Assembly (NCBI RefSeq): GCF_014023125.1
Contig: NZ_CP048914.1
Location: 124,001-188,000 of the forward strand
DNA from: Candidatus Xianfuyuplasma coldseepsis
GTDB taxonomy: Bacteria; Bacillota_I; Bacilli_A; Izemoplasmatales; Izemoplasmataceae
Direction: 5' to 3'
Length of the DNA stretch: 64,000 nucleotides
Shown here: positions 2,079 to 35,512 of the stretch, one piece after another
How positions within the stretch are numbered: the first letter of the stretch is position 1
Layout of the letters: every line of letters begins with the position of its first letter
Position numbers and translations under genes: made by a program
Notes under the pieces: generated by a model
Database searches by the model: none
What the model saw: only the letters and a program-made list of their open reading frames with translations
What the model was told of the DNA's origin: nothing

Positions 2079-2105
2079 AAAAAAAAGACGCAATGTTATG
2101 CGTCT
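2079..2105 (-). terminator. Rho-independent terminator after the ECF S-component gene
   Basis: A GACGCATAACATTGCGTC hairpin runs straight into a tract of nine T on the minus strand and overlaps the last codons of the gene. Confidence 0.85.
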
Positions 2106-2679
2106 AATTCATATTCAGTGCTGGTTTTAATGCATTGTACGTTGCATAGAACACTGCCATGATGATTCCACCTTTAATCAAATTAAATGGAATGTATACA
2201 CTGAGAATCGTTGTGATATACGTCGGATTGAAAATATTGGGGAATACTTCTCCAGCCAACGCAATACCAAACAACGGAGTGATGAATAACCAGTTTGCAA
2301 ATGTCATTAGTAACGACATAAAGACAACACTGAACACCATACTCAGCAATACCTTCAGATTTAATTTGTTAGTCGCAAAGTAGAACCCACCAATATACGC
2401 AGCACTTGCAAGAAATGCAGCCAACTCACCAACACCTGCGGTGTAATTCGTTCCCGGGAATACGAAATGGATGGATGATTTTACAAATGCAACCAGCAAT
2501 CCCTCTTTCGCTCCGAAAAAGATAAACACCAACAACACCACAACGTCACTCAAATCAATCCGTAAGAAATTGTAAAATACGAACGGAAGTTCCAAATACA
2601 TTAACGCTGTCGCTAATGCGGATAATACACCCAAAGCGGTTAATCTTTGTGTTTGTGATAATGATTGAATTGATGTCAT
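2104..2679 (-). CDS. ribU: RibU-like riboflavin ECF transporter S component
   Basis: Membrane substrate-binding subunit of an energy-coupling-factor transporter, predicted to import riboflavin. The 191-residue protein is almost all hydrophobic with about six membrane segments, and it carries the family-like stretches FLRIDLSDV and ISVSGIT-region equivalents near the middle. The strongest evidence for the substrate is an FMN riboswitch in the leader, with an attenuator hairpin between it and the GGAGG ribosome site. The shared EcfA/A'/T module is not in this window. The neighbouring rnf genes encode flavoproteins, so a nearby flavin importer makes sense physiologically. Confidence 0.88.
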   Translation of the reverse strand: MTSIQSLSQTQRLTALGVLSALATALMYLELPFVFYNFLRIDLSDVVVLLVFIFFGAKEGLLVAFVKSSIHFVFPGTNYTAGVGELAAFLASAAYIGGFYFATNKLNLKVLLSMVFSVVFMSLLMTFANWLFITPLFGIALAGEVFPNIFNPTYITTILSVYIPFNLIKGGIIMAVFYATYNALKPALNMN

Positions 2680-2729: not shown

Positions 2730-2773
2730 GCAGTTGAAAGGATTCAATAAACACAAAAAAATCTATTGAAATC

Positions 2774-2882
2774 ATCTTCTTTCATCTAGACTATACTATC
2801 GGTATTGGAATTGCACCAATTCATGCGTTCTCACGCTCGCGGACTATACCGCCGGTCGGGAATTTCACCCTGCCCTGAAGAT
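2774..2882 (-). promoter_or_regulatory. FMN riboswitch (RFN element)
   Basis: Read on the minus strand, the segment begins with the hallmark CAGGGTGAAATTCCCGACC, continues GGCGGTATAGTCCGCGAGC and closes with a P1 stem (ATCTTC at 2774-2779 against GAAGAT at 2877-2882). These are the conserved joining sequences of the RFN family. It would switch off ribU when FMN is plentiful. Confidence 0.96.
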
Positions 2883-2894
2883 TAATTCATGTGT

Positions 2895-2923: not shown

Positions 2924-2973
2924 ATAATACTACATAGTTTTTGTATAAAACTTGTTCTATTCATATTTTTTCT

Positions 2974-3004
2974 AAAAAAAGAGCGATTTCTTGTGAAATC
3001 ACTC
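2974..3004 (-). terminator. Rho-independent terminator of the cyd-rnf operon
   Basis: GAGTGATTTC pairs with GAAATCGCTC and is followed by seven T on the minus strand. The rnfB stop codon lies inside the stem, which confirms that the short rnfB ends here. Confidence 0.9.
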
Positions 3005-3298
3005 CTCATCAAAGGTAATTTTTCCGTCTTTGTAATCATCCAACAATTTTTGAATATTACGCTTCATTTGATCGGTCCCCGGCTTGCATTTTGTAACCGG
3101 ATATCCATTCATAACAACTTCTTCGGCCATGGCCATGCATCCTGGTGTACCACAACCCCCACAGTTAAAATGCGGTAACATATCATAGACTTGTTGCACC
3201 ATTGGATGGGCTTTGACTTCGAGGTACTTATTCGCAATACCGATGGCAACCCCAAGTACCAATCCGATGGCACCAATGTATAAGATCGCATTTAACAT
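2999..3298 (-). CDS. rnfB: RnfB-like membrane FeS subunit, short form without ferredoxin domains
   Basis: The 99-residue product has an N-terminal membrane helix (about 3-23) and one 4Fe-4S domain with FNCGGCGTPGC and a fourth cysteine in KCKPG, matching the N-terminal third of RnfB. Canonical RnfB continues for 150 or more residues with two or more CxxCxxCxxxC ferredoxin clusters that receive electrons from soluble ferredoxin. Here the frame stops inside a terminator hairpin, so this is the natural end rather than a frameshift visible in the sequence. It overlaps the rnfA stop by one base. Electron transfer through one cluster remains possible, but the usual ferredoxin-type clusters are missing. 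Confidence 0.88.
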   Translation of the reverse strand: MLNAILYIGAIGLVLGVAIGIANKYLEVKAHPMVQQVYDMLPHFNCGGCGTPGCMAMAEEVVMNGYPVTKCKPGTDQMKRNIQKLLDDYKDGKITFDEE

Positions 3299-3873
3299 TA
3301 TATCAACCCCACAAAGCCTTTAAATAATAGGGACATAATCGCAGCCGCGATCAATCCACTTGGAATCCCTTTAAATCCTTCTGGAATCGGCGCTTTATGC
3401 ATTTGTTCACGGATGTAACTAAAGACGACAATAATCGCTGTATAACCAAGTGATGTAAAGGCACTAAAGGTAATCGTTTCTACAAACGTGAAATTGTTTT
3501 GGATATTTAATATCGCAACCCCTAATACGGCACAGTTGGTTGTAATCAGTGGTAAGTAAACACCAAGTGCACTATATAAATTCTTATTGAATTTCTTAAT
3601 CGCCATTTCCAAGATTTGAACCATTCCTGCAATCACTAAGATAAAGACGATAGTTCGCATAAAGGTAATCTCACCAGGAACCAAGATGTAGTAATAAATC
3701 GTCCACGTTAGCATACTACTTAACGTAATAACAACAAATACGGCGACGCCCATACCAATCGCTTTGGAACGTTTATTTGATACGCCAAGGAAGGAACAAA
3801 TTCCTAAGAATTGACTTAAAATAATGTTCTGAACTAAGAACGAAGTAAACGCTAATGAAATTAAATCTTGCAT
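3298..3873 (-). CDS. rnfA: RnfA, membrane electron-transport subunit
   Basis: Integral membrane subunit of the Rnf/Nqr family, 191 residues with about six helices, full family length. The paired half-helix cysteines that hold the RnfA/RnfE iron-sulfur cluster are present in LGICSFLGVS near residue 26 and LITTNCAVLG near residue 108. Its start is immediately after the rnfE stop, indicating translational coupling. In known Rnf complexes this pair passes electrons across the membrane between RnfB and the flavin subunits. Conserved cysteines suggest this step is still functional in the cut-down complex. Confidence 0.95.
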   Translation of the reverse strand: MQDLISLAFTSFLVQNIILSQFLGICSFLGVSNKRSKAIGMGVAVFVVITLSSMLTWTIYYYILVPGEITFMRTIVFILVIAGMVQILEMAIKKFNKNLYSALGVYLPLITTNCAVLGVAILNIQNNFTFVETITFSAFTSLGYTAIIVVFSYIREQMHKAPIPEGFKGIPSGLIAAAIMSLLFKGFVGLI

Positions 3874-4629
3874 CTAATTCGCCCCCTTCAAGTTCATCTC
3901 AGGCTTGACGGTAGGAACTTCTTTTTTTGCGGCTTCTTCCGCGGCTTTTTTCGCAGCTTCTTTGGCGGCTTTTTTCGCCAATGCAGCTTTAATTTTAGCA
4001 TCTAAAATCGCTTTTTTCTTTTTCTCACGATCAATGCGAACGGTATTGATGACTCCAATAATTAATCCCAAGGTCAAGAATGCCCCGGTTGGTTGAATCA
4101 AGAAACTCGCTGCACTGTTCGCATCAAAGAAGGTAAATCCTAATACTGAACCGGTACCAAGCAACTCACGGACAAAGGCCAATGTGGATAATCCAAGGGT
4201 AAACCCTAGACCCATACCCATACCATCAAAGATACTGTCCTTTACCGTATTGTCCGATGCGTACGCTTCAGCTCGTCCTAAGACGATACAGTTCACGACA
4301 ATCAATGGTAAGTACACACCAAGTCCATCATACAATAGCGGTAAGTTTGCTTCAATAAACCATTCGATTAAGGTAACGACTAATGCAATCACAGTAATGT
4401 ATACAGGAATCCGAATTTCTGGTGGTACGATTTTACGAATTGATGCGATTATCGCATTGGTGACCATCAATACAAATAATACACTGACACCCATCCCAAA
4501 TCCATTGGATAACGATGTGGTTGTCCCAAGTGTTGGACACATACCAAGGATTAACACAAACGTTGGATTTTCTTTTATTAATCCTTTAATAATGTTTTGT
4601 TTTGGCGTCAAACGTTTATTCTTACTCAT
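3874..4629 (-). CDS. rnfE: RnfE with a Lys/Ala-rich C-terminal tail
   Basis: Partner of RnfA in the membrane core. The 251-residue protein starts with the family-typical GLIKENPTFVLILGMCPTLG, and its cluster cysteines appear in LGMCPTLG and VNCIVLGRAEAYAS. About the last 50 residues form a highly charged tail of repeated AAKKAAEEAAKK-like units, which is longer than a usual RnfE C-terminus and should be helical and cytoplasmic. ATG follows GGAGGTG; its start overlaps the rnfG end by eight bases. Confidence 0.94.
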   Translation of the reverse strand: MSKNKRLTPKQNIIKGLIKENPTFVLILGMCPTLGTTTSLSNGFGMGVSVLFVLMVTNAIIASIRKIVPPEIRIPVYITVIALVVTLIEWFIEANLPLLYDGLGVYLPLIVVNCIVLGRAEAYASDNTVKDSIFDGMGMGLGFTLGLSTLAFVRELLGTGSVLGFTFFDANSAASFLIQPTGAFLTLGLIIGVINTVRIDREKKKKAILDAKIKAALAKKAAKEAAKKAAEEAAKKEVPTVKPEMNLKGAN

Positions 4630-5185
4630 TGATGTTCACCTCCTTGTTGTAATGTTCATATAGTTTATCATACATTGTTTCGAGTGCATTCCATGTTGTA
4701 GTTGCTCCTGCTAATTGATCCACATCCACATCAGCAATCGATTGACCAACTAATTTTTCAATCTCTTCATCACGGGTGTATTTCTCACCGAGGTTTGGTG
4801 TCTCAGCATGATCATAATAGGTGACACCGATAATCGTTTCGGTGAATGGATCAACAGCAACCAATCCGTAAATAACATCATTACGTCCTTGAATATTCAT
4901 ATCATAGATCAATGCAAACAATTCATCATCTTGATCCAGTACTTCATAAATGTCGGTTATCGAACTATATTCCGAGCTATCTTGACGATACTTATTATCG
5001 GCTTGATCATCATTCTTTTTATATCCCTCTTCTGGATCAAACAACAACGCGATATTATCACTAATCTTTTTATTGGTATTGGCAATAATAATTGGTTGTG
5101 TATAGTTGTATCCAAGATATGCAATCAAGGTAACAATCATTCCCAATACAGCTAAGTAGATAGCGAAATAAGCAGTCTTTTTCAT
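4622..5185 (-). CDS. rnfG: RnfG, FMN-binding subunit
   Basis: Single-span membrane protein with an extracytoplasmic FMN-binding domain, 187 residues. The N-terminal helix covers about 5-27. The family motif HAETPNLGEK is at 126-135. The flavinylation motif reads AGATT at 159-163 where SGAT is usual; the acceptor threonine (Thr162) is kept while the first serine has become alanine. In known complexes FMN is attached by ApbE, which is not found in this window. The start overlaps the rnfD stop as ATGA. This appears to be the only subunit here still able to carry covalent FMN. Confidence 0.93.
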   Translation of the reverse strand: MKKTAYFAIYLAVLGMIVTLIAYLGYNYTQPIIIANTNKKISDNIALLFDPEEGYKKNDDQADNKYRQDSSEYSSITDIYEVLDQDDELFALIYDMNIQGRNDVIYGLVAVDPFTETIIGVTYYDHAETPNLGEKYTRDEEIEKLVGQSIADVDVDQLAGATTTWNALETMYDKLYEHYNKEVNINE

Positions 5186-6249
5186 GCTTTAGCACCTGCC
5201 TTTTTCACAGGAGCTTTGCGTTTTTCTTTAAACACTTCGTTTAATAGTGGCGTTAGCATACTCATAAACAAGACAGCAAAGATGACCCCTTCTTCATGGG
5301 TCCCTGCCAAGCGAATAAACACCGTTAAGGCTCCAACAACAACGCCAAATACAATCTTACCTTTAAATGGCATTGGTGTTGTAATCGGATCAGTCATAAC
5401 AAAGATTGCGACAAATAAGAACGAGCCACTAAATAAGTGATACAGTGGATAGACAAGTTCTTGTTGTTGTACAAGACCAACAATCCATGCCGTAAGCACA
5501 AATGTTGCAGTAGCAATAACAGGTATTTTCCAATCAATAACTTTTTTAACCACAAAATACACAAACATTAACAACAATACCAGCGCACTACCAACAACAC
5601 CAGGATTCAGTCCGACAAACAACTCACCGATTGCGTAAAACGGAACCGTTTCATCCGTTAACGCCGCTAACGCATTTGCCGCTGTAGCTGGATCGTAATT
5701 GCCACCAATGGCCAACGTATTGTTAAAGAAGGAATTGTCAAACAATAACTCTAAAATATAATTATCAAATGACGTCATAAACGCAACACCATCAACAATT
5801 TGACTCCAACCAAGTGTAACCACAATCACCCCTACTAACGAGGAATGGAATACCATGTGATGAAATCCACCAAACAGCAATTTACCAAGTAACGTCGCCA
5901 ATGCGGCACCAAGTCCGACCAACCATAATGGTGTGCCCACAGGAATCAACAACGCATAAATCATTGCGGTTACTTCGGGATAGGATTTCTTGATCAAGTC
6001 TTTCGCTGTTTGCCGATCAATATCTTTATCATGGGTATAGAATAAAATCTCGGTTTCCCGGGTAACAATAATCGATAGCACAACCATCAACAGCAACTTA
6101 ACGGCATACATAAACGCAAACAAATAGTAATATTGAAGGACCATGAAAATCGTTAACACCCATAAAGCTTGCATAAGAATCTTCATATTGCCATCTTTAA
6201 CGAACTTGCTTCGTGCAGACGGCCATAACATTATTTTTTTCGTAGCCAT
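5182..6249 (-). CDS. rnfD: RnfD-like membrane subunit, divergent at flavin motifs
   Basis: RnfD/NqrB-family polytopic membrane protein, 355 residues with about nine helices. Family assignment rests on KKVIDWKIP, FVMTDPITTPMPFKGK and the C-terminal segment ending in MLTPLLNEVF. The usual FMN-acceptor motif (D-x-x-S/T-G-A-T-P-L) aligns with DPATAANAL (about 186-194), putting asparagine where the acceptor threonine should be. The conserved NxFNPA motif is also replaced by MVFHSSLVG. Covalent FMN is therefore doubtful. I chose ATG at 6247-6249, spaced correctly after AGGGGTG, rather than an upstream TTG; this leaves a 10-base gap from cydB. Confidence 0.88.
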   Translation of the reverse strand: MATKKIMLWPSARSKFVKDGNMKILMQALWVLTIFMVLQYYYLFAFMYAVKLLLMVVLSIIVTRETEILFYTHDKDIDRQTAKDLIKKSYPEVTAMIYALLIPVGTPLWLVGLGAALATLLGKLLFGGFHHMVFHSSLVGVIVVTLGWSQIVDGVAFMTSFDNYILELLFDNSFFNNTLAIGGNYDPATAANALAALTDETVPFYAIGELFVGLNPGVVGSALVLLLMFVYFVVKKVIDWKIPVIATATFVLTAWIVGLVQQQELVYPLYHLFSGSFLFVAIFVMTDPITTPMPFKGKIVFGVVVGALTVFIRLAGTHEEGVIFAVLFMSMLTPLLNEVFKEKRKAPVKKAGAKA

Positions 6250-6259
6250 CACATCACCC

Positions 6260-7288
6260 CTATTCAAAATCCTTTGCTAATTTTGTTGCAAATTTCTTAT
6301 ATTTCCATACCTGATATCCAATGATAACAGGGAATGCTACAACCGCTACGATAAAGATGATTTGTCCACTTTTTACTTGGGTAACAACGTCATGGATGAT
6401 CATACTGGATGATGGATCGACGTTGGACGGTACGATTTCAGGAAACATACCTACGAACCCCACAATAACAAACATCGCCATAGTTAATAAACTAAAAATG
6501 AACAATTTCTTATGATCCTGTTGAAGTCCAAAATAAAGGACTAGCATCGCACATGCAAATGCTATGAAAGGTAGGATAAATAAGACCGGATATGCGGTAA
6601 ACAACTCACCAACAAATAAGCGATCGGCAACATTGTATCCCATAAAGACTAACAATAATAATACGGGTACCATAATATTAAATCCAATTTTTTTCACAAA
6701 CGCTAATCCTCGTTGTCCGAGTTCTCCTTCTGTTGTCAAGGCAATCCACGCGGCACCAGCGGTTACACTTAAGGCAAAAAACAACAACCCACCGGCAATT
6801 GACGTGACACTGAATATACTAAAGAAACTACCGGTTAATCCCGTACTTTCAAGCGGGAATCCATAGAACCAGTTGGTGATATATACCCCAAATAAGAAGA
6901 TAATCAATGCGCTCGAAATCGCCCATGCTCTGGCATTCCATTTGACCCAGATAGGACTATCCATTTTATACAATGTTTCAATCACAATTCCGCGAGTGAT
7001 TAACGCATACAGAAGCAAATAAAACACCACATATAAATACGTATAGGTCATCGCAAATGCTTGCGGAAACGCACCTAGTAAAATCGTTACCGAGGCGATG
7101 AACCAGACTTCAATTCCATCCCAATGTAAACCCGATGAATATTGAATTTGCTTTCGTTCTTGTTCGTCTTTTGCTAAGACAAGATTTAATGCACTAGAAC
7201 CCGTAATAAACACTTCTTGAATCAGATACATTACCCACGTGAAGCCAATGATGATATAGAGTGCATTCGCTAGAAATAGACTACTCAT
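6260..7288 (-). CDS. cydB: Cytochrome bd oxidase subunit II
   Basis: Membrane partner of CydA in the bd-type oxygen reductase, 342 residues with about eight helices, normal family length. The conserved tryptophan-aspartate pair appears in SGLHWDGIEVW near residue 56. It overlaps the end of cydA by eight bases and is followed after only ten bases by rnfD, so oxidase and Rnf genes are on one transcript. ATG follows GGAGGTG. No CydCD transporter is seen in the window. Confidence 0.95.
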   Translation of the reverse strand: MSSLFLANALYIIIGFTWVMYLIQEVFITGSSALNLVLAKDEQERKQIQYSSGLHWDGIEVWFIASVTILLGAFPQAFAMTYTYLYVVFYLLLYALITRGIVIETLYKMDSPIWVKWNARAWAISSALIIFLFGVYITNWFYGFPLESTGLTGSFFSIFSVTSIAGGLLFFALSVTAGAAWIALTTEGELGQRGLAFVKKIGFNIMVPVLLLLVFMGYNVADRLFVGELFTAYPVLFILPFIAFACAMLVLYFGLQQDHKKLFIFSLLTMAMFVIVGFVGMFPEIVPSNVDPSSSMIIHDVVTQVKSGQIIFIVAVVAFPVIIGYQVWKYKKFATKLAKDFE

Positions 7289-8450
7289 GGTTCACACCTC
7301 CATCACGGGGCAAAATGCCTTTTTTAATTCGGGAAATGGTTAATACATAATCTAGGATAAACAAAATCGCATAGAATAACGTGATCGTAATAATCGAGAA
7401 CCACACTTGAGCAACCGGTACATCCGATACTCCTGCACTGGTTTCCATGATGTTATAAATAATCCACGGTTGACGCCCAAGTTCAGTGACAATCCAACCT
7501 GTAATAATTGCAATGTACGGTAGTGGTACTAATTTTACATACAGAGATTGGAGGGTTGGTGATGCCTCGTATTTCTTGCGGAAAATTACGGTATACATAC
7601 CAAATCCCAAGAATAAGAATCCAAGTCCAACCATGATATGGAAACTAATCCGAACAACTGCTTCAAGCGTTCCCGTTTGCAACCCTTGAATCATATTAAT
7701 CTTTGTCGGTTGAACTTCGGTAATCAGCCCCATATAACTATTTCCTATCAGTGGTAATAAAATCGCCGTAATCAAGATCGTCCAGCTACCATATCGAGCG
7801 GCAATCTTGAAGATCTCTTTATCTTCTTCTTTTCCTTTTAAAAGGTGCCAGGAACTAATTGCCAAAACCACAAATCCACTGAGTAGAATTGCACTGATGT
7901 GATTATGGAAGAACATATACCATGCATACGGATTAAACACGAGCTCTGCAAAACTATTCAACACCATCTGTGTTCCATCCCATGTCGCACCAACAGGGTT
8001 GTGCATAAACCCGTTTACGGTGATAATCCAGACAGCACTAAGCGTCGTACCAATGGTGATCATTGATACCACGATCAACCGCAATTTTTTCGTCAGTTGA
8101 TTTTTACGGAAGAACCAAATCCCATTGAATGTCGATTCCAAGAAGAACGCCAATATCGCTTCGAGGACTAGTGGCGAACCGAAAATCTCACCCATGACAA
8201 CGGTAAAATTCCCCCAGTTGGTTCCAAATTGAACCGTCATGGCAATCCCAGTAACAATCCCAAACGCGTAGTTAATTAAGAAAATATCGCTAAAATAATT
8301 GGATAATATTTTAAACCGCTGGTCATCGCTTCGATAATACTTGATTTCGAACACCAACACCAAAATAATTAATCCAACCGTTAATGGAACAAAAATAAAA
8401 TGAAATGCAATGGTTAATGCAAATTGTAATCTCGATAATATTTCTACCAT
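7281..8450 (-). CDS. cydA: Cytochrome bd oxidase subunit I lacking the Q-loop
   Basis: Catalytic heme subunit that reduces oxygen to water. All three heme ligands are visible: His17 in the N-terminal LQFALTIAFHFIFVP, His182 in FHNHISA, and Met273 in FHIMVG. The proton-path glutamates (97, 105) and GRQPW with Glu323/Arg326 are also kept. The protein is only 389 residues against 440-520 for the family. The segment between Lys250 (E. coli Lys252) and residue 271 (E. coli Arg391) is about 20 residues instead of about 138, so the quinol-binding Q-loop is essentially gone; Glu257 and Arg391 equivalents are Gln255 and His271. Oxygen chemistry looks intact while quinol oxidation does not. ATG follows GGAGG. 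Confidence 0.94.
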   Translation of the reverse strand: MVEILSRLQFALTIAFHFIFVPLTVGLIILVLVFEIKYYRSDDQRFKILSNYFSDIFLINYAFGIVTGIAMTVQFGTNWGNFTVVMGEIFGSPLVLEAILAFFLESTFNGIWFFRKNQLTKKLRLIVVSMITIGTTLSAVWIITVNGFMHNPVGATWDGTQMVLNSFAELVFNPYAWYMFFHNHISAILLSGFVVLAISSWHLLKGKEEDKEIFKIAARYGSWTILITAILLPLIGNSYMGLITEVQPTKINMIQGLQTGTLEAVVRISFHIMVGLGFLFLGFGMYTVIFRKKYEASPTLQSLYVKLVPLPYIAIITGWIVTELGRQPWIIYNIMETSAGVSDVPVAQVWFSIITITLFYAILFILDYVLTISRIKKGILPRDGGVNHE

Positions 8451-8482
8451 ATTACGACCTCCGATACTATAAATGTATTATA

Positions 8483-8674
8483 TCACGATTCTGATGGCTT
8501 ACGAATAAGTAACAGAATAAAAACAACAACCGCAACAACGGTAGCAACGATTCCACCGGTAACATGTGCATAAAACGTATTGGTCCACTCAAACACCCGC
8601 ATCGCTACTGCAATCAAAACGTACAAACCAATAAACGTGATTCCGGCATAAATCATACTTTCGATAAGTTTCAT
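8483..8674 (-). CDS. Small two-helix membrane protein of the cyd-rnf operon
   Basis: A 63-residue protein with two hydrophobic segments (about 5-25 and 38-58) joined by a short polar loop containing RVFEWTNTFYAH. It matches no family I recognise. It overlaps the preceding gene as ATGA, has an AAGGAG ribosome site, and is followed 32 bases later by cydA. Small accessory subunits (CydX, CydS) are common in bd oxidases but are usually single-span and encoded after cydB. A role as an extra subunit or adaptor between modules is inference from position. Confidence 0.72.
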   Translation of the reverse strand: MKLIESMIYAGITFIGLYVLIAVAMRVFEWTNTFYAHVTGGIVATVVAVVVFILLLIRKPSES

Positions 8675-9297
8675 TTTGAAAACTCCTTCAACAACTTATT
8701 ATTGACATACAAAATCAACAACATTCCGTATATCACTTTATCAAACCACTCGCCAACCCATAATAGATGAGCAAACAATGCGAGATAAATAATGTACGCT
8801 GCCTTTTGAACCAATAACCAATCCTTTGGTTTAATTTCCCGTTTGATGATTTGAAACGATATAATCGTCAAGGGAACCATCAAGACATACGCAACAATAC
8901 CAAACAGATTAATACCGTCAAATACTTCAAATACATGTAATACAGCGTGCGGACTAATCAGGATAAACCCCATAATCGACAATGTCCCGCGACGTTTTTT
9001 GATATGGCGACTTACCGTCCATTTATTGGGGAGTACACCAACCATCATCACCACAAAGAGTATCGCATAGGGGAGATATCCCCTTGTGACGTAGTCCATC
9101 CATTCTTCGGTGTGAAAGATGACTGCAAGTACCGCTAGTACAAGCGACAGAAAATACCATAGTATCCGCGCTTGAAATAGATGTGGCCATTTATATAACA
9201 ATGCAGTCAACATTCCTGCCACAGCAAGAATGTTTAACGAGACACTCATCACGTCTACAATCAACAACATCAACAGCACCAAGATAACTCCAATCAT
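8671..9297 (-). CDS. Ferric-reductase-like heme membrane protein (MsrQ/YedZ-like)
   Basis: A 208-residue protein with about six hydrophobic helices. The middle part resembles the ferric reductase-like transmembrane domain: KKRRGTLSIMGFILISPHAV with a second histidine seven residues later in the helix, then PLTIISF, and a later helix KAAYIIYLALFAHLLW with another histidine. These histidines are in positions suited to bind b heme across the bilayer. No NAD- or flavin-binding soluble domain is attached. It is the first gene of the cyd-rnf operon with a good AGGAGGTG site. I infer an electron-carrying role; the exact family is uncertain because similarity is by eye. Confidence 0.7.
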   Translation of the reverse strand: MIGVILVLLMLLIVDVMSVSLNILAVAGMLTALLYKWPHLFQARILWYFLSLVLAVLAVIFHTEEWMDYVTRGYLPYAILFVVMMVGVLPNKWTVSRHIKKRRGTLSIMGFILISPHAVLHVFEVFDGINLFGIVAYVLMVPLTIISFQIIKREIKPKDWLLVQKAAYIIYLALFAHLLWVGEWFDKVIYGMLLILYVNNKLLKEFSK

Positions 9298-26680: not shown

Positions 26681-26707
26681 AAAAGCACTCAAACGAGTGC
26701 TTTTTTT
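26681..26707. terminator. Bidirectional terminator between the tocopherol cyclase-like gene and buk
   Basis: AAAAAGCACTC and GAGTGCTTTTTTT flank a short loop, giving T runs on both strands between two convergent genes. Confidence 0.92.
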
Positions 26708-27767
26708 AATACGTACGAATCGTAATCAATCCTTGTTCCAGTTGTTGTAAGTTGTAGTTTAATGCTTCCATTTCACCTTCACCAGGATAGACGATAATGT
26801 TTCCCATGTGTTCTAAATACTCCGTCAACGGGTTAATCACATCGTCATTATACGCCAATCCGCCCGTAAGAATAATCGCATCTAATTTACCTCTTGTAAC
26901 AGCGTAGAGTGCCCCAATTTCTTTCGCAATTTGATACACCATCGCTTTCATTACACGTTTGGCTAATACATGGCCATCAGCAATCATTTTACTGACTTCC
27001 ATCGCATCGTTTGTACCGAGGTACGATACAAGTCCTCCATATCCATGATTCAATTTCCTAAATTGTTCAATACTATATTGACCACCATAAGCTAATTCAT
27101 AGACGCTACCCACCGGTAGTCCACCGGTTCGTTCTGGTGTGAATGGGCCATCACCATCAAGGGCATTATTCACATCGGTGACCCGACCTTGTTTGTGTAA
27201 TCCAACACTAATTCCCCCACCTAAATGGGCGACAATCAACACCGATTGATCGTATGTTTTTTTGGTGGTTTCACAATATTTTTTGGCAACGGCTTTTTGA
27301 TTTAAAGCGTGCCACAAGGGACGTCGCTGAATCCCATTTAATCCTGATATCTTTGCGACACTACTCATCTCATCAACAACAACAGGATCGGCAATATAGG
27401 CTTTTTTATGAAATTGATCGGCGAACTCTTTTGCTAAAATACCTCCTAAATTAGAAGCATGTTCACCGTATTTACAAGTTGCCATATCGGTAACCATCTG
27501 GGCATTTACTTCATAGATTCCGGATTTTACTGGTTTCATTAATCCACCCCGACCAATGAATCCATCAATTTCTTCGATTGGTATTTCACAAGAATCTAAG
27601 AAGGTTTGAATCATTTGTTTTCGAAATGGTAGTTGTTCAATCAACTCATCAAATTTTTTCAAATCTTTTGCACGGTGTCTTATGGTTTCCTTACAGACCT
27701 TTTTGTCGCCGTCAAATACGGCAACTTTAGTCGAAGTACTTCCCGGATTTATAACGAGTGTTTTCAT
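26706..27767 (-). CDS. buk: Butyrate kinase
   Basis: Converts butyryl- or branched acyl-phosphate and ADP to the free acid and ATP. ASKHA-fold protein of 353 residues with the N-terminal phosphate loop NPGSTSTKVAVFDG, AHLGGGISVGLH in the middle and TGGLAYN near the end. It overlaps the end of ptb (ATGA) and is the last gene of an operon that starts with a 2-oxoacid:ferredoxin oxidoreductase. That context favours isobutyrate, isovalerate or 2-methylbutyrate as products, with butyrate from lysine as another possible source. Confidence 0.96.
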   Translation of the reverse strand: MKTLVINPGSTSTKVAVFDGDKKVCKETIRHRAKDLKKFDELIEQLPFRKQMIQTFLDSCEIPIEEIDGFIGRGGLMKPVKSGIYEVNAQMVTDMATCKYGEHASNLGGILAKEFADQFHKKAYIADPVVVDEMSSVAKISGLNGIQRRPLWHALNQKAVAKKYCETTKKTYDQSVLIVAHLGGGISVGLHKQGRVTDVNNALDGDGPFTPERTGGLPVGSVYELAYGGQYSIEQFRKLNHGYGGLVSYLGTNDAMEVSKMIADGHVLAKRVMKAMVYQIAKEIGALYAVTRGKLDAIILTGGLAYNDDVINPLTEYLEHMGNIIVYPGEGEMEALNYNLQQLEQGLITIRTY

Positions 27768-28663
27768 AGAATATCCGTACTGACCACAGCAAGTGCAATC
27801 GAATATAATTTGGATTTATATGAGTCACTTCTTGATGTTAGAACAATCGGGTTGGATGCTCCTAAAATGATACCTACTGGTGTCGAATTTGCAAAGAATG
27901 TTGTCGATTTATAAAAGGTATTCCCTGCTTCGATATTGGGGAAAATCAATACATCTGCATCCCCAGCAACCACGTGCTTAATGCCTTTTGTTTCAGCTGC
28001 TTCATGACTAACGGCAATGTCGATGCTCATCGGTCCACCGATGTAAAAACGTTCATCATCACGTAGTTGTTCGACAATGTTTTTTGCTTCGACGGTAGAT
28101 TGAATTTCTTCATGTACCGTTTCAAACGCACTAACAAGTGCAATTTTCGGTTTAAAGATACCTAAGCTCGTGACGAATTCGAGGGTGTTATTGATGATTT
28201 TGATTTTCTCCTCTTCATTAGGAGAAATATTGAATGCCGCATCACTGATAAATAGTAATTTGTGATAGGCTGGAATATCAATAACACCAAGATGACTTAA
28301 AAAATCACCTGTGAGTAACCCGTGTTCTTTGTCGTGCACTTCATCGAGTAGTGTAATGGTATCGATGAGGCCTTTCATTAGAATCGAGTTTTCTTGTTTG
28401 CTGACGAGTTTTACACTCATCAACGCTGCATCTTTTTTATCCTTTGCATTATATATTTCATATCCTGCTTTACTGATACCCAGTTCCATAAATAGATCGA
28501 GAATTTTCTTCTTATCTCCGACCAAAACAGGTCGAATTAATCCCATTTGAAAGGCATCATTAATGGCGATTAAAATCGAGGTGTCTTCGGGACTGGCTAC
28601 AATCAAATCTTTTGTTTCGAGACTTCTGGCGTAATCGACAACTTGTGTGAAATTTCGAAACAT
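27764..28663 (-). CDS. ptb: Phosphate butyryltransferase
   Basis: Transfers an acyl group from CoA to phosphate, feeding butyrate kinase. The 299-residue protein matches the Pta/Ptb family, with ISDAAFNISPNEEEK, GGPMSIDIAVS and the C-terminal GASNPIVLTSRSD. ATG follows AGGGAG, and 13 bases separate it from the oxidoreductase gamma gene. Context points to branched-chain acyl-CoA as main substrate, but the family is broad enough that butyryl-CoA cannot be excluded. Confidence 0.95.
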   Translation of the reverse strand: MFRNFTQVVDYARSLETKDLIVASPEDTSILIAINDAFQMGLIRPVLVGDKKKILDLFMELGISKAGYEIYNAKDKKDAALMSVKLVSKQENSILMKGLIDTITLLDEVHDKEHGLLTGDFLSHLGVIDIPAYHKLLFISDAAFNISPNEEEKIKIINNTLEFVTSLGIFKPKIALVSAFETVHEEIQSTVEAKNIVEQLRDDERFYIGGPMSIDIAVSHEAAETKGIKHVVAGDADVLIFPNIEAGNTFYKSTTFFANSTPVGIILGASNPIVLTSRSDSYKSKLYSIALAVVSTDIL

Positions 28664-28676
28664 ATCATCATCTCCC

Positions 28677-29219
28677 TTACTGGATTACGGCGTTTTTACC
28701 GACTTCTAGTGCTTGTCGATTGATGTCAATTAATTTTGCTTTAGTACCGGTAAACTTGTGTTCTAATACACTGATTACATCATCAAAGGTAAAGATTTTG
28801 GTGATGGCTAAGTACGCGCCCAACATGACCATGTTGGCGACTTTCAAGTTCCCGAGTTGTAACGCTAGATCATTCGCAGGAACCTGATATATTGTAACAT
28901 CGTCGCGATAGGCTTCATCAATCACTAAACTGGAATTCACAAAACAGAGACCGCCTTGTTTCAGTTTTGGTTGGAATTTCGCCAAGGATGGTTTATTCAT
29001 AATAATGATCGAGTCCGGTGTGGAAATAACAGGACTATTTACATATTCTTCACTAATGGTAACACTGCAGTTGGCAGTTCCTCCACGGGTTTCTGGACCA
29101 TAGGATGGAAACCATAACGTATTCACATCTTTTTCGGTGGCACAGTACGATAGGATTTGTCCCATCAACATCACACCTTGCCCACCAAAACCGGCAATAA
29201 TCACTTTTTCGTTAATCAT
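28677..29219 (-). CDS. vorC: 2-oxoacid:ferredoxin oxidoreductase, gamma subunit
   Basis: CoA/nucleotide-binding domain subunit of a four-subunit 2-oxoacid:ferredoxin oxidoreductase. The 180-residue protein starts with IAGFGGQGVMLMGQIL, the family signature, and shows FPSYGPETRGGTANC, where a substrate-contacting arginine lies. It overlaps the TPP subunit by eight bases. Similar subunits occur in 2-oxoglutarate (Kor) enzymes; assignment to a branched-chain (Vor) enzyme rests on the adjoining ptb-buk genes. Confidence 0.92.
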   Translation of the reverse strand: MINEKVIIAGFGGQGVMLMGQILSYCATEKDVNTLWFPSYGPETRGGTANCSVTISEEYVNSPVISTPDSIIIMNKPSLAKFQPKLKQGGLCFVNSSLVIDEAYRDDVTIYQVPANDLALQLGNLKVANMVMLGAYLAITKIFTFDDVISVLEHKFTGTKAKLIDINRQALEVGKNAVIQ

Positions 29220-29979
29220 TGGCTTGTTCCTCCTTTGTCCGATCTTTATAGACCCCTAAAGGATAATACGGAATCATGTGTTCAACCGCCCAATCGACGG
29301 CATCTTTTGGTGTCATACCCCAGTTTACGGGACAGGTTGATACAAATTCGATTAAACTGAATCCTTGTTTTTTATCTTGAATATCAAATGCTTTCTTCAA
29401 GGCTTTTTTCGCTTTGTTTACATGTTGTGGATTGTGAACACTAACGCGTTCTACATAAGTTGCACCCGGAATGGTTGCCATCATTTCACTAATTTTCAGA
29501 GGCAATCCTGTTTCTTTTGCATCGCGTCCATCCGGTGATGTCGTGGTTTTTTGGCCAATCAATGTTGTTGGAGCCATTTGTCCACCCGTCATTCCATAGA
29601 TGGCATTATTGACAAAGATAATCGTAATGTTTTCACTGCGGTGGGCTGCATGGATGGCTTCGGCAATTCCGATACTAGCCAAATCTCCATCCCCTTGATA
29701 GGTAAATAGGATTGCATTGTCGCGAACGCGTTTGATTCCTGTTGCAACTGCTGGTGCTCGTCCATGCGCAACTTGAACCATGTCGCAGGAAAAGAAATCG
29801 TAGTTTAACGCACTACAACCAACACTACTGATTCCAATAGATCGTTCCAATAACCCCAGTTCTTCCAAACTTTGGGCGACTAATTTATGAATGATTCCAT
29901 GGGTACAACCGGGACAATAGGTTAATGGTACATCGGTTAACCCTGCACTCTTTTGATATACAATTTTACTTGTTGGCAT
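29212..29979 (-). CDS. vorA: 2-oxoacid:ferredoxin oxidoreductase, thiamine diphosphate subunit
   Basis: Binds thiamine diphosphate and carries the iron-sulfur cluster near it. Visible are CPGCTHGIIHKL, where two cluster cysteines lie, and the TPP/magnesium motif GDGDLASIGIAEAIHAAHR ending with NNAIYGMTGGQ. Length 255 residues is normal for the beta subunit. ATG follows GGAGGTG. The alpha gene overlaps it by one base. Decarboxylation of the 2-oxoacid occurs here, with electrons passing to ferredoxin via VorD. Confidence 0.94.
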   Translation of the reverse strand: MPTSKIVYQKSAGLTDVPLTYCPGCTHGIIHKLVAQSLEELGLLERSIGISSVGCSALNYDFFSCDMVQVAHGRAPAVATGIKRVRDNAILFTYQGDGDLASIGIAEAIHAAHRSENITIIFVNNAIYGMTGGQMAPTTLIGQKTTTSPDGRDAKETGLPLKISEMMATIPGATYVERVSVHNPQHVNKAKKALKKAFDIQDKKQGFSLIEFVSTCPVNWGMTPKDAVDWAVEHMIPYYPLGVYKDRTKEEQAND

Positions 29980-31046
29980 TATTTTGCACCTCCAACAATA
30001 TTCATAACCTGTTCAACAATTTCTTCAGCTTCTGGGACAACGCCTCCAACACGTCCATAGAAATGAACGTTATGACGGAACTGATCGGCAAGACGAACAT
30101 CATCCACCATTTGTCCTGTATTCATTTCAACAACCAAAATGTCTTGTACCTTTTGAGGAATCTCCTCAAATGCTTTGGTTGGGAATGGGAAAATCGTAAT
30201 GGGTCGGATAATACCGCATTCAATCCCATTTTCTTTTAAGATTTCCACGCTTGTACGGGCAATTCGCGAGGTCGATCCAAATGCACAAATCACGACTTCA
30301 GCCTTGTCCATGTTGATCATTTCATAGCGTTGATGATCGCGTTTCATCTCATCGTATTTTGCTTTTAATTTTAGATTATGCTGTTCTAGAACCAACGGAT
30401 CCAGGTATAAACTATTGACAATGTTTTTCTCCCGTCCGTTTGAACGATTTCCATCCGCTGCCCATGTTTTGGGTTCTAGTGTCCATTTTGGAACGTCGTG
30501 ATCAAAATCAACAGGCTCCATCATTTGGCCAATCAAACCATCTACGGCAATCATTACCGGATTACGGAAATAATCGGCAATATCAAAGGATTCTTTGATC
30601 AAATCAACAGCTTCTTGTAGGCTTTCTGGTGCTAAACTATACAGGTAGTAATCCCCATTTCCACCACCACGAGTGATTTGTTTATAATCTCCTTGTGATG
30701 GTTGGATACCACCAAGACCAGGTCCGCCACGCATAACATTGATAATGACAGCAGGTAATTCGGAACCAGCGATATAACTAATGCCTTCTTGTTTCAAGGC
30801 AATACCTGGACTACTCGAACTTGTCAAAACCCGAGCACCAGCCGCGGCTGCTCCATAGACCATATTGATTGCAGCAACTTCGCTTTCGCTCTGGACAAAC
30901 ACCCGATCATTCTCATGCATATGCTTACTCATGTATTCGGGAAGCTCATTTTGAGGGGTGATAGGATATCCATAGAATGCCTCACAACCCGCCTTAATTG
31001 CGGCAAGAGCCATTGCTTCATTCCCTTTCATTAATACTTTAGCCAT
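29979..31046 (-). CDS. vorB: 2-oxoacid:ferredoxin oxidoreductase, alpha subunit (VorB type)
   Basis: Pyrimidine-binding and transketolase C-terminal domains of the oxidoreductase. The 355-residue product starts MAKVLMKGNEAMALAAIKAG and contains YGYPITPQNEL and SSSPGIALKQEGISYIAG. An upstream in-frame methionine 27 codons earlier is inside the ferredoxin gene and lacks a ribosome site; ATG at 31044-31046 is behind GGAGG, and shares a base with the VorD stop (TAATG). The subunit set matches the 3-methyl-2-oxobutanoate dehydrogenase (VorABCD) pattern. Confidence 0.94.
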   Translation of the reverse strand: MAKVLMKGNEAMALAAIKAGCEAFYGYPITPQNELPEYMSKHMHENDRVFVQSESEVAAINMVYGAAAAGARVLTSSSSPGIALKQEGISYIAGSELPAVIINVMRGGPGLGGIQPSQGDYKQITRGGGNGDYYLYSLAPESLQEAVDLIKESFDIADYFRNPVMIAVDGLIGQMMEPVDFDHDVPKWTLEPKTWAADGNRSNGREKNIVNSLYLDPLVLEQHNLKLKAKYDEMKRDHQRYEMINMDKAEVVICAFGSTSRIARTSVEILKENGIECGIIRPITIFPFPTKAFEEIPQKVQDILVVEMNTGQMVDDVRLADQFRHNVHFYGRVGGVVPEAEEIVEQVMNIVGGAK

Positions 31047-31276
31047 TATCTCGCCTCCTTGATAAACCGCTCTACGGTAATAACAGAATCCGGACACATC
31101 GTCGCACAGAAACCACAGGCGATGCACTTATCGGGATCGGTAACCATGAGTGGTGTATATCCTTTCTTGTTGGTTCTGGATTCATCCAATTGTAAGATGT
31201 TTACGGGGCAATAAAACGTGCACAAACTGCATCCTTTGCAAACATCTTCTGCAATAATAATTCGACCTTTTGCCAT
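31046..31276 (-). CDS. vorD: 2-oxoacid:ferredoxin oxidoreductase, ferredoxin-like delta subunit
   Basis: A 76-residue protein with two 4Fe-4S sites: CKGCSLCTFYCPV and CIACGFCATMCPD. It carries electrons from the thiamine centre to free ferredoxin. It sits between the P-loop ATPase gene and vorB, with the overlapping TAATG junction suggesting coupled translation. Confidence 0.95.
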   Translation of the reverse strand: MAKGRIIIAEDVCKGCSLCTFYCPVNILQLDESRTNKKGYTPLMVTDPDKCIACGFCATMCPDSVITVERFIKEAR

Positions 31277-35284: not shown

Positions 35285-35512
35285 CTATAAAAAAAGTCCA
35301 TCCTAAAATAAGGACGAACATAATATCCGCGGTACCACCTTGGTTCTTCTTGCGAAGCACTTAATTCGTTAACGCCGAATGACGAAACAGGCTCCCGTGT
35401 TGCACCTGTTTAACTCCCTAGACTAATTCGTATTTATCCATTCCTAATTTCCACCACCATTAGGTCGCTGTAAATCGTATAAATACTACTACTTCTAGTT
35501 CCTCGTTATACT
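35285..35512 (-). promoter_or_regulatory. T-box leader of leuS, UUA specifier
   Basis: On the minus strand the conserved T-box AGGTGGTACCGCGG ends at 35327, and a terminator hairpin with a seven-T run covers about 35287-35316. In stem I, GTATTTAT pairs with ATAAATAC, an AGTA segment faces GAA, and the codon after GAA is TTA (35424-35426), a leucine codon. The bulge TGGT would pair with the ACCA end of tRNA-Leu. Uncharged tRNA-Leu would therefore promote readthrough. Confidence 0.94.

Follow-up and report, generated by a model that had tools for sequence, protein, structure and literature searches.

A cytochrome bd-Rnf operon encoding a probable quinol-independent oxygen reductase in Candidatus Xianfuyuplasma coldseepsis

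Candidatus Xianfuyuplasma coldseepsis, a deep-sea bacterium without a cell wall, carries a nine-gene operon that joins cytochrome bd genes to rnf genes. The probable product is an oxygen reductase independent of quinol, with an Rnf module that works only in the outward direction and feeds a cytochrome bd without a Q-loop. Well-studied bd oxidases, in contrast, take electrons from quinol. If true, this reading describes a respiratory chain without a mobile lipid carrier, corrects the published quinone-pool picture in Izemoplasma (PMC8397711, PMC7761423), supplies a plausible donor for bd oxidases that lack the quinol site and shows an anaerobic ion pump rebuilt for oxygen. The source strain, zrk13, is a strict anaerobe of the Izemoplasmataceae (PMC8397711), and its availability in culture opens the claim to experimental test.

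Organization of the operon

The operon occupies positions 9297-2999 on the minus strand of the window, which is the 64,000-nucleotide stretch of DNA that was analyzed. Its nine same-strand genes (an frd-like gene, a 63-aa gene, cydA, cydB, rnfD, rnfG, rnfE, rnfA and rnfB) are separated, in order, by -4, 32, -8, 10, -4, -8, 0 and -1 bases, and the earlier note's description of a single tight operon containing cyd and rnf is borne out by all nine genes, with gaps from -8 to +32. The last seven genes, cydA to rnfB, were named using Pfam and NCBIfam, and the Pfam matches of the operon proteins comprise FeS, Rnf-Nqr (twice), FMN_bind, NQR2_RnfD_RnfE, Cyt_bd II and Cyt_bd I. The same note had given the operon one promoter and one terminator. 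The terminator stood, as a strong hairpin with a U run 3' of rnfB (2968..3008, minus strand; fold -16.2 kcal/mol, z = -5.1), but a promoter scan 5' of the first gene, frd, resolved none.

The frd gene (8671..9297, minus strand) encodes a membrane protein of 208 aa that is a candidate member of the ferric reductase/MsrQ-like superfamily, and this ferric-reductase-like, putatively haem b-type character of the first operon gene was overlooked in the earlier note. The assignment relies on the presence of PF01794 in orthologues and on histidine conservation. PF01794 matches six of eight orthologues, with a best E of 2.8e-7, and the window protein matches at E 7.7e-4, under the curated cut-off. Two histidines, H117 and H177, are invariant, and the pair suggests a bis-His haem b; we infer that the protein contains haem. 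Neither a search by fold nor a sequence search of the PDB returned a match for this protein, and its AlphaFold model (pLDDT 59) is too poor for use. The 63-aa protein (8483..8674, minus strand) has two predicted membrane helices by hydropathy, matches no family in Pfam or NCBIfam, and is conserved with the cassette: every complete cassette encodes an orthologue, as does L049, a locus described below.

CydA lacks the Q-loop and E257

The 389-aa CydA (7281..8450, minus strand) matches PF01654 (E 9e-112) in two stretches and lacks PF01654 positions of approximately 254-310. Its membership of the cytochrome bd superfamily follows from homology and from the retention of H19, H186, M393, E99 and E107. 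In alignments with PDB sequences, the segment that corresponds to residues 246-396 of E. coli bd-II is 33 residues long versus 151, and thus approximately 118 Q-loop residues are gone. The same segment is 28-35 residues long in all 11 Q-loop-less CydA proteins compared. The residue table shows that H19, H186, M393, E99, E107, K252, E445 and R448 are kept in all 11; the GRQPW motif is also kept. As for the features of a quinol oxidase, the Q-loop between helices 6 and 7 is absent, and K252 is retained but E257 is lost. E257 is replaced by Gln in the window and by Gln, Thr, Asn, Val or Ser across the 10 Rnf-linked CydA proteins (10/10), whereas the unlinked CydA of genome G292 keeps Glu. This tracking of E257 loss with rnf linkage is suggestive but, with one unlinked case, not proof. 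The partner subunit CydB (342 aa; 6260..7288, minus strand) matches PF02322 (E 4e-52). A search for CydD matched many ABC exporters, none above the cut-off.

The earlier note had the quinol site of CydA missing, which holds for the Q-loop and E257 but not for K252. It had also asked whether a second, normal cydA exists or whether relatives with the same operon have an ordinary quinol-binding CydA. The window cydA is the only one found in this single-contig genome, and every Rnf-linked CydA has lost both the Q-loop and E257.

Quinone and haem supply

Known respiratory quinone pathways need a UbiA-family prenyltransferase. This family was found in none of 11 genomes of the bacterial family (0/11) versus 14 of 14 controls, so quinone synthesis is not expected in these organisms; scavenging may occur. 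The Izemoplasma cytochrome bd has been described together with a quinone pool (PMC8397711, PMC7761423), and the negative UbiA result conflicts with these accounts. Searches for ferrochelatase were likewise negative in all 11 family genomes and positive in 8 of 14 controls, and the haem for CydAB must therefore come from elsewhere.

The Rnf subunits

The five Rnf genes lie on the minus strand. RnfB (99 aa; 2999..3298; PF04060 E 6e-12) consists of a membrane helix and a single FeS domain and has no ferredoxin domains. RnfA (191 aa; 3298..3873; PF02508 E 6e-52; best NCBIfam match TIGR01943 rnfA) carries the Cys motifs of structure 9ERI, and RnfE (251 aa; 3874..4629; PF02508 E 4e-60), which ends in a Lys/Ala-rich C-terminal tail, carries MCPTL and NCIVLG motifs that match those of 9ERI and 7ZC6. 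Relative to the solved structures, RnfA and RnfE retain the Cys motifs that hold the [2Fe-2S] cluster, and RnfB retains its FeS cysteines. RnfA scores 222 bits as RnfA versus 152 bits as NqrE, RnfE also scores as Rnf and not as Nqr, and the operon contains no NqrF gene, which sets it apart from Na+-NQR. RnfG (187 aa; 4622..5185; PF04205 E 1.6e-11) is held by a single membrane anchor and carries a GAT flavinylation motif within its single FMN_bind domain. This motif, GA[TS]xTW, is conserved across the cassette as GAT or GAS, and an ApbE flavin transferase is encoded in the genome.

RnfD (355 aa; 5182..6249; PF03116 E 8e-54) is different, and its altered flavin sites escaped the earlier note. 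The riboflavin ligand N123 of A. woodii RnfD is His (H135 in the window) in all seven Izemoplasma cyd-linked RnfD proteins; all other RnfD proteins in the alignment have Asn there. The seven share a second invariant His four residues before the N123 position. At the position of T156, the covalent FMN acceptor, the window has Asn, L011 has Ser and five relatives have Thr, and the surrounding motif is changed. Loss of covalent FMN from RnfD as a family-wide trait is weakened by the Thr in this column in 5 of 7 relatives. The RnfD of operon 2 of the same genome keeps both N123 and T156. Outside Izemoplasma, RnfD keeps both residues in G294 and N123 but not T156 in G471. The AlphaFold model of RnfD (pLDDT 46) is too poor for use. 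Judged by sequence, the outward arm (RnfB, RnfA/E and RnfG) is intact, and the return arm (RnfD and RnfC) is altered or missing.

The lack of RnfC is confined to this operon, and the earlier note's view that RnfC is missing does not hold. The genome has three Rnf operons, and a complete rnfCDGEAB set heads from contig position 123542, which is 459 bp beyond the left window edge and 3 kb past the operon end. Its full-length rnfC (433 aa; contig 122241-123542) matches Complex1_51K (E 1e-37) and has SLBB and 4Fe-4S domains. RnfC loss was thus rejected as a mark of the system. In other cassette holders, rnfC lies approximately 50 kb away (G080) or on other contigs (G045, G047, G049 and G051) and never inside the Izemoplasma cassette, which places it outside the unit. 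A third Rnf operon, at approximately 329-337 kb, encodes an RnfC-like protein, an RnfG with three FMN domains and a hydrogenase-like FeS protein. The short RnfB without ferredoxin domains was correctly described, but as a special mark of the system it was rejected because the trait is lineage-wide. All three RnfB proteins of the genome are short, leaving no full-length rnfB, for which the earlier note had suggested a check; RnfB-like frames in the 11 family genomes span 101-130 aa, and three further FeS matches of approximately 570 aa occur in other genomes.

Conservation and linkage in other lineages

This CydA is found in 8 of 90 genomes of the order, with 66-78% identity between the window CydA and those of the seven relatives. 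All nine genes occur in the same order in the window and five relatives, and the L017 and L016 cassettes agree with this order up to their contig ends. The genes that flank the cassette vary among genera. A class-wide scan of 395 genomes (CydA threshold E 1e-25 or better) found CydA matches in seven, all without the Q-loop, and three of the seven are not Izemoplasma. G471 contains cydA-cydB-rnfD-rnfG-rnfE-rnfA with gaps of -23 to +4. G294 (L049, C22:129001-149000) contains a run of 15 genes with gaps of -29 to +14, which encode RnfD, G, E, A and B, NuoE, NuoF, three mostly FeS proteins, an RnfC-like protein, an FRD-like protein, a small protein, CydA and CydB; this run may constitute a complete NADH-to-oxygen chain. 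G292 (L050, C40:64001-84000) contains a Q-loop-less cydAB that keeps E257, with no rnf gene within the 20 kb read. In the RnfE tree, the Izemoplasma copies group together (100/98), and G294 and G471 are left unplaced, so that a single and a multiple origin of the cyd-rnf linkage both fit the tree. When genome contigs were scanned for the RnfD marker, only five records emerged, all from Izemoplasma or Tenericutes/Mycoplasmatota.

Proposed electron path

How might electrons reach CydA without quinol? In E. coli bd, the entry point for electrons into CydA is haem b558, which lies at the outer face beneath the Q-loop. The Rnf complex of A. woodii passes electrons from ferredoxin via RnfB and the RnfA/E cluster to the RnfG FMN at the outer face, and then via RnfD and RnfC to NAD+ (PMC11889175). 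With the Q-loop and the RnfD-RnfC return removed, the RnfG FMN and haem b558 would be left on the same side. We propose that the short RnfB would receive electrons at its single FeS cluster from a carrier in the cytosol, for which reduced ferredoxin is the most likely candidate. The electrons would then move to the RnfA/E [2Fe-2S] cluster, with Na+ export at RnfA/E, and to the covalent FMN of RnfG at the outer face. From RnfG, the electrons would pass to haem b558 of CydA, directly or via the putative haem b-type FRD protein, and finally to oxygen; the FRD-like protein could serve as a bridge between the two cofactors. The altered RnfD flavin sites and the absence of RnfC from the operon argue that the electrons go to haem b558 instead of NAD+.

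This chain is supported by the cassette order in eight genomes (two cut by contig ends) and by Q-loop-less cydAB beside rnf in two other, distant lineages. It is further supported by the kept haem ligands, the missing Q-loop, the tracking of E257 loss with rnf linkage and the negative UbiA result in all 11 genomes. Support also comes from the N123-to-His change in 7/7 RnfD proteins while the operon-2 RnfD keeps both residues, from the kept ligand motifs of RnfA/E, RnfG and RnfB, from the presence of ApbE, and from the known U-shaped Rnf path with the RnfG FMN at the outer face (PMC11889175). The core of the earlier proposal, transfer from RnfA/E/G to a haem oxidase without quinol, is strengthened by the conserved cassette, the two additional lineages, E257 and the lack of UbiA; its supports from RnfC and the short RnfB fell away. 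Against this chain stand the retention of K252, the literature that assumes a quinone pool (PMC8397711, PMC7761423), the negative ferrochelatase result (0/11), the description of the strain as strictly anaerobic and the G292 cydAB without rnf nearby. A general loss of FMN from RnfD is opposed by the Thr at T156 in five of seven relatives.

We infer complex formation, direct contact, the identity of the donor and the way in which the electrons flow, and our confidence in the exact donor and in direct Rnf-Cyd contact is lower than that in the chain as a whole. Ferredoxin is favored as the donor by the presence of RnfB, but not RnfC, in the cassette and by an apparent 2-oxoacid:ferredoxin oxidoreductase cluster at 28.7-31.1 kb, which is a possible ferredoxin source. 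We tentatively put forward the most specific version, a hard-wired ferredoxin:O2 oxidoreductase in which an Rnf that has lost its NAD arm would export Na+ and the RnfG flavin would reduce b558 with neither quinone nor cytochrome c in between.

Alternative explanations

The best surviving alternative changes only the entry point. NADH would be the donor of a quinone-free NADH:O2 oxidoreductase if the module borrowed RnfC from the neighboring rnfCDGEAB or used a NuoEF-type module. The complete rnfC only 3 kb past the operon end fits this idea, and nuoE and nuoF in one run with rnf and cyd in G294 indicate that NADH may feed such systems too. We nonetheless consider NADH an unlikely donor here, given the distant or separate location of rnfC in the other cassette holders and its consistent exclusion from the Izemoplasma cassette; furthermore, the usual partner of RnfC is RnfD, and the RnfD of this operon has altered flavin sites.

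A second alternative retains the quinol. CydAB would be an ordinary quinol oxidase supplied with quinones scavenged from outside the cell, and the Rnf module would reduce these quinones as Na+-NQR does. Exogenous quinones are used by some bacteria without quinone synthesis, and CydA retains K252, R448 and the GRQPW motif. The literature annotation agrees as well (PMC8397711, PMC7761423). This explanation is nevertheless quite improbable in light of the Q-loop segment of 28-35 versus 151 residues, the loss of E257 in every Rnf-linked CydA and the 0/11 count for the UbiA family, and the lack of NqrF and the score of RnfA as RnfA (222 bits) over NqrE (152 bits) speak against an Nqr-like quinone reductase. 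Finally, mere co-transcription for a shared oxygen-stress response, with Rnf serving another acceptor and CydAB another donor, would suit a strictly anaerobic host, a peroxiredoxin gene downstream and the G292 cydAB without rnf, but it is very unlikely to explain a fixed order with near-zero gaps in three lineages or the omission of RnfC and alteration of RnfD exactly in the cyd-linked copy.

Comparison with known systems

The OR-N and OR-C groups of Murali et al. 2021 are reportedly bd oxygen reductases without a quinol site. They resemble the quinol-independent reductase proposed here as bd oxidases that lack quinol-binding elements, a comparison made by description only, and we know of no Rnf linkage in these groups. 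The window CydA shares H19, H186, M393, E99 and E107 with E. coli CydAB (6RKO, 7OSE) but is approximately 118 Q-loop residues shorter, has lost E257, comes from an organism in which quinone synthesis was not detected and is joined into an rnf operon. The Rnf complexes of A. woodii (9ERI) and C. tetanomorphum (7ZC6) have homologous RnfA, B, D, E and G subunits with common FeS and RnfG flavin motifs. In contrast to them, the window operon has no RnfC, its RnfB has no ferredoxin domains and its RnfD has His in place of N123, and it adds cydAB, the FRD-like protein and the 63-aa protein.

Flavinylation-based outward electron transfer has been described for two-subunit Nqr/Rnf-like systems and for multi-FMN RnfG systems (PMC8238504, PMC10979944). 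There too, Rnf-derived parts send electrons to an extracytosolic acceptor, and MsrQ-like cytochromes occur in the clusters. Those systems differ from the window operon, whose acceptor would be an oxidase within the membrane, and the main texts on them make no mention of cyd genes (PMC8238504, PMC10979944). The open literature searched yielded no account of a cyd-rnf operon; the parts of the chain are known, and their composition was not found described there.

Genomic neighborhood

Directly past the rnf genes, an FMN riboswitch (RF00050; window 2770-2886, minus strand) lies 5' of a gene (2104-2679, minus strand) for a 191-aa membrane protein that resembles an ECF riboflavin transporter subunit. 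The peroxiredoxin gene lies 1.1 kb downstream of the operon. By eye, window positions 26706-31127 (minus strand) read as one cluster of butyrate kinase, phosphate butyryltransferase and three 2-oxoacid:ferredoxin oxidoreductase subunits. The region of the third Rnf operon (own genome 326000-342000, L022) encodes a 633-aa RnfG with three FMN_bind domains, with apbE and rhodanese/FMN lipoproteins nearby, and its RnfC-like protein shows a weak FMN-domain match only; this operon is possibly an outward electron-transfer system. A T-box leader (window 35307-35512, minus strand) precedes an 830-aa gene that resembles leucyl-tRNA synthetase.
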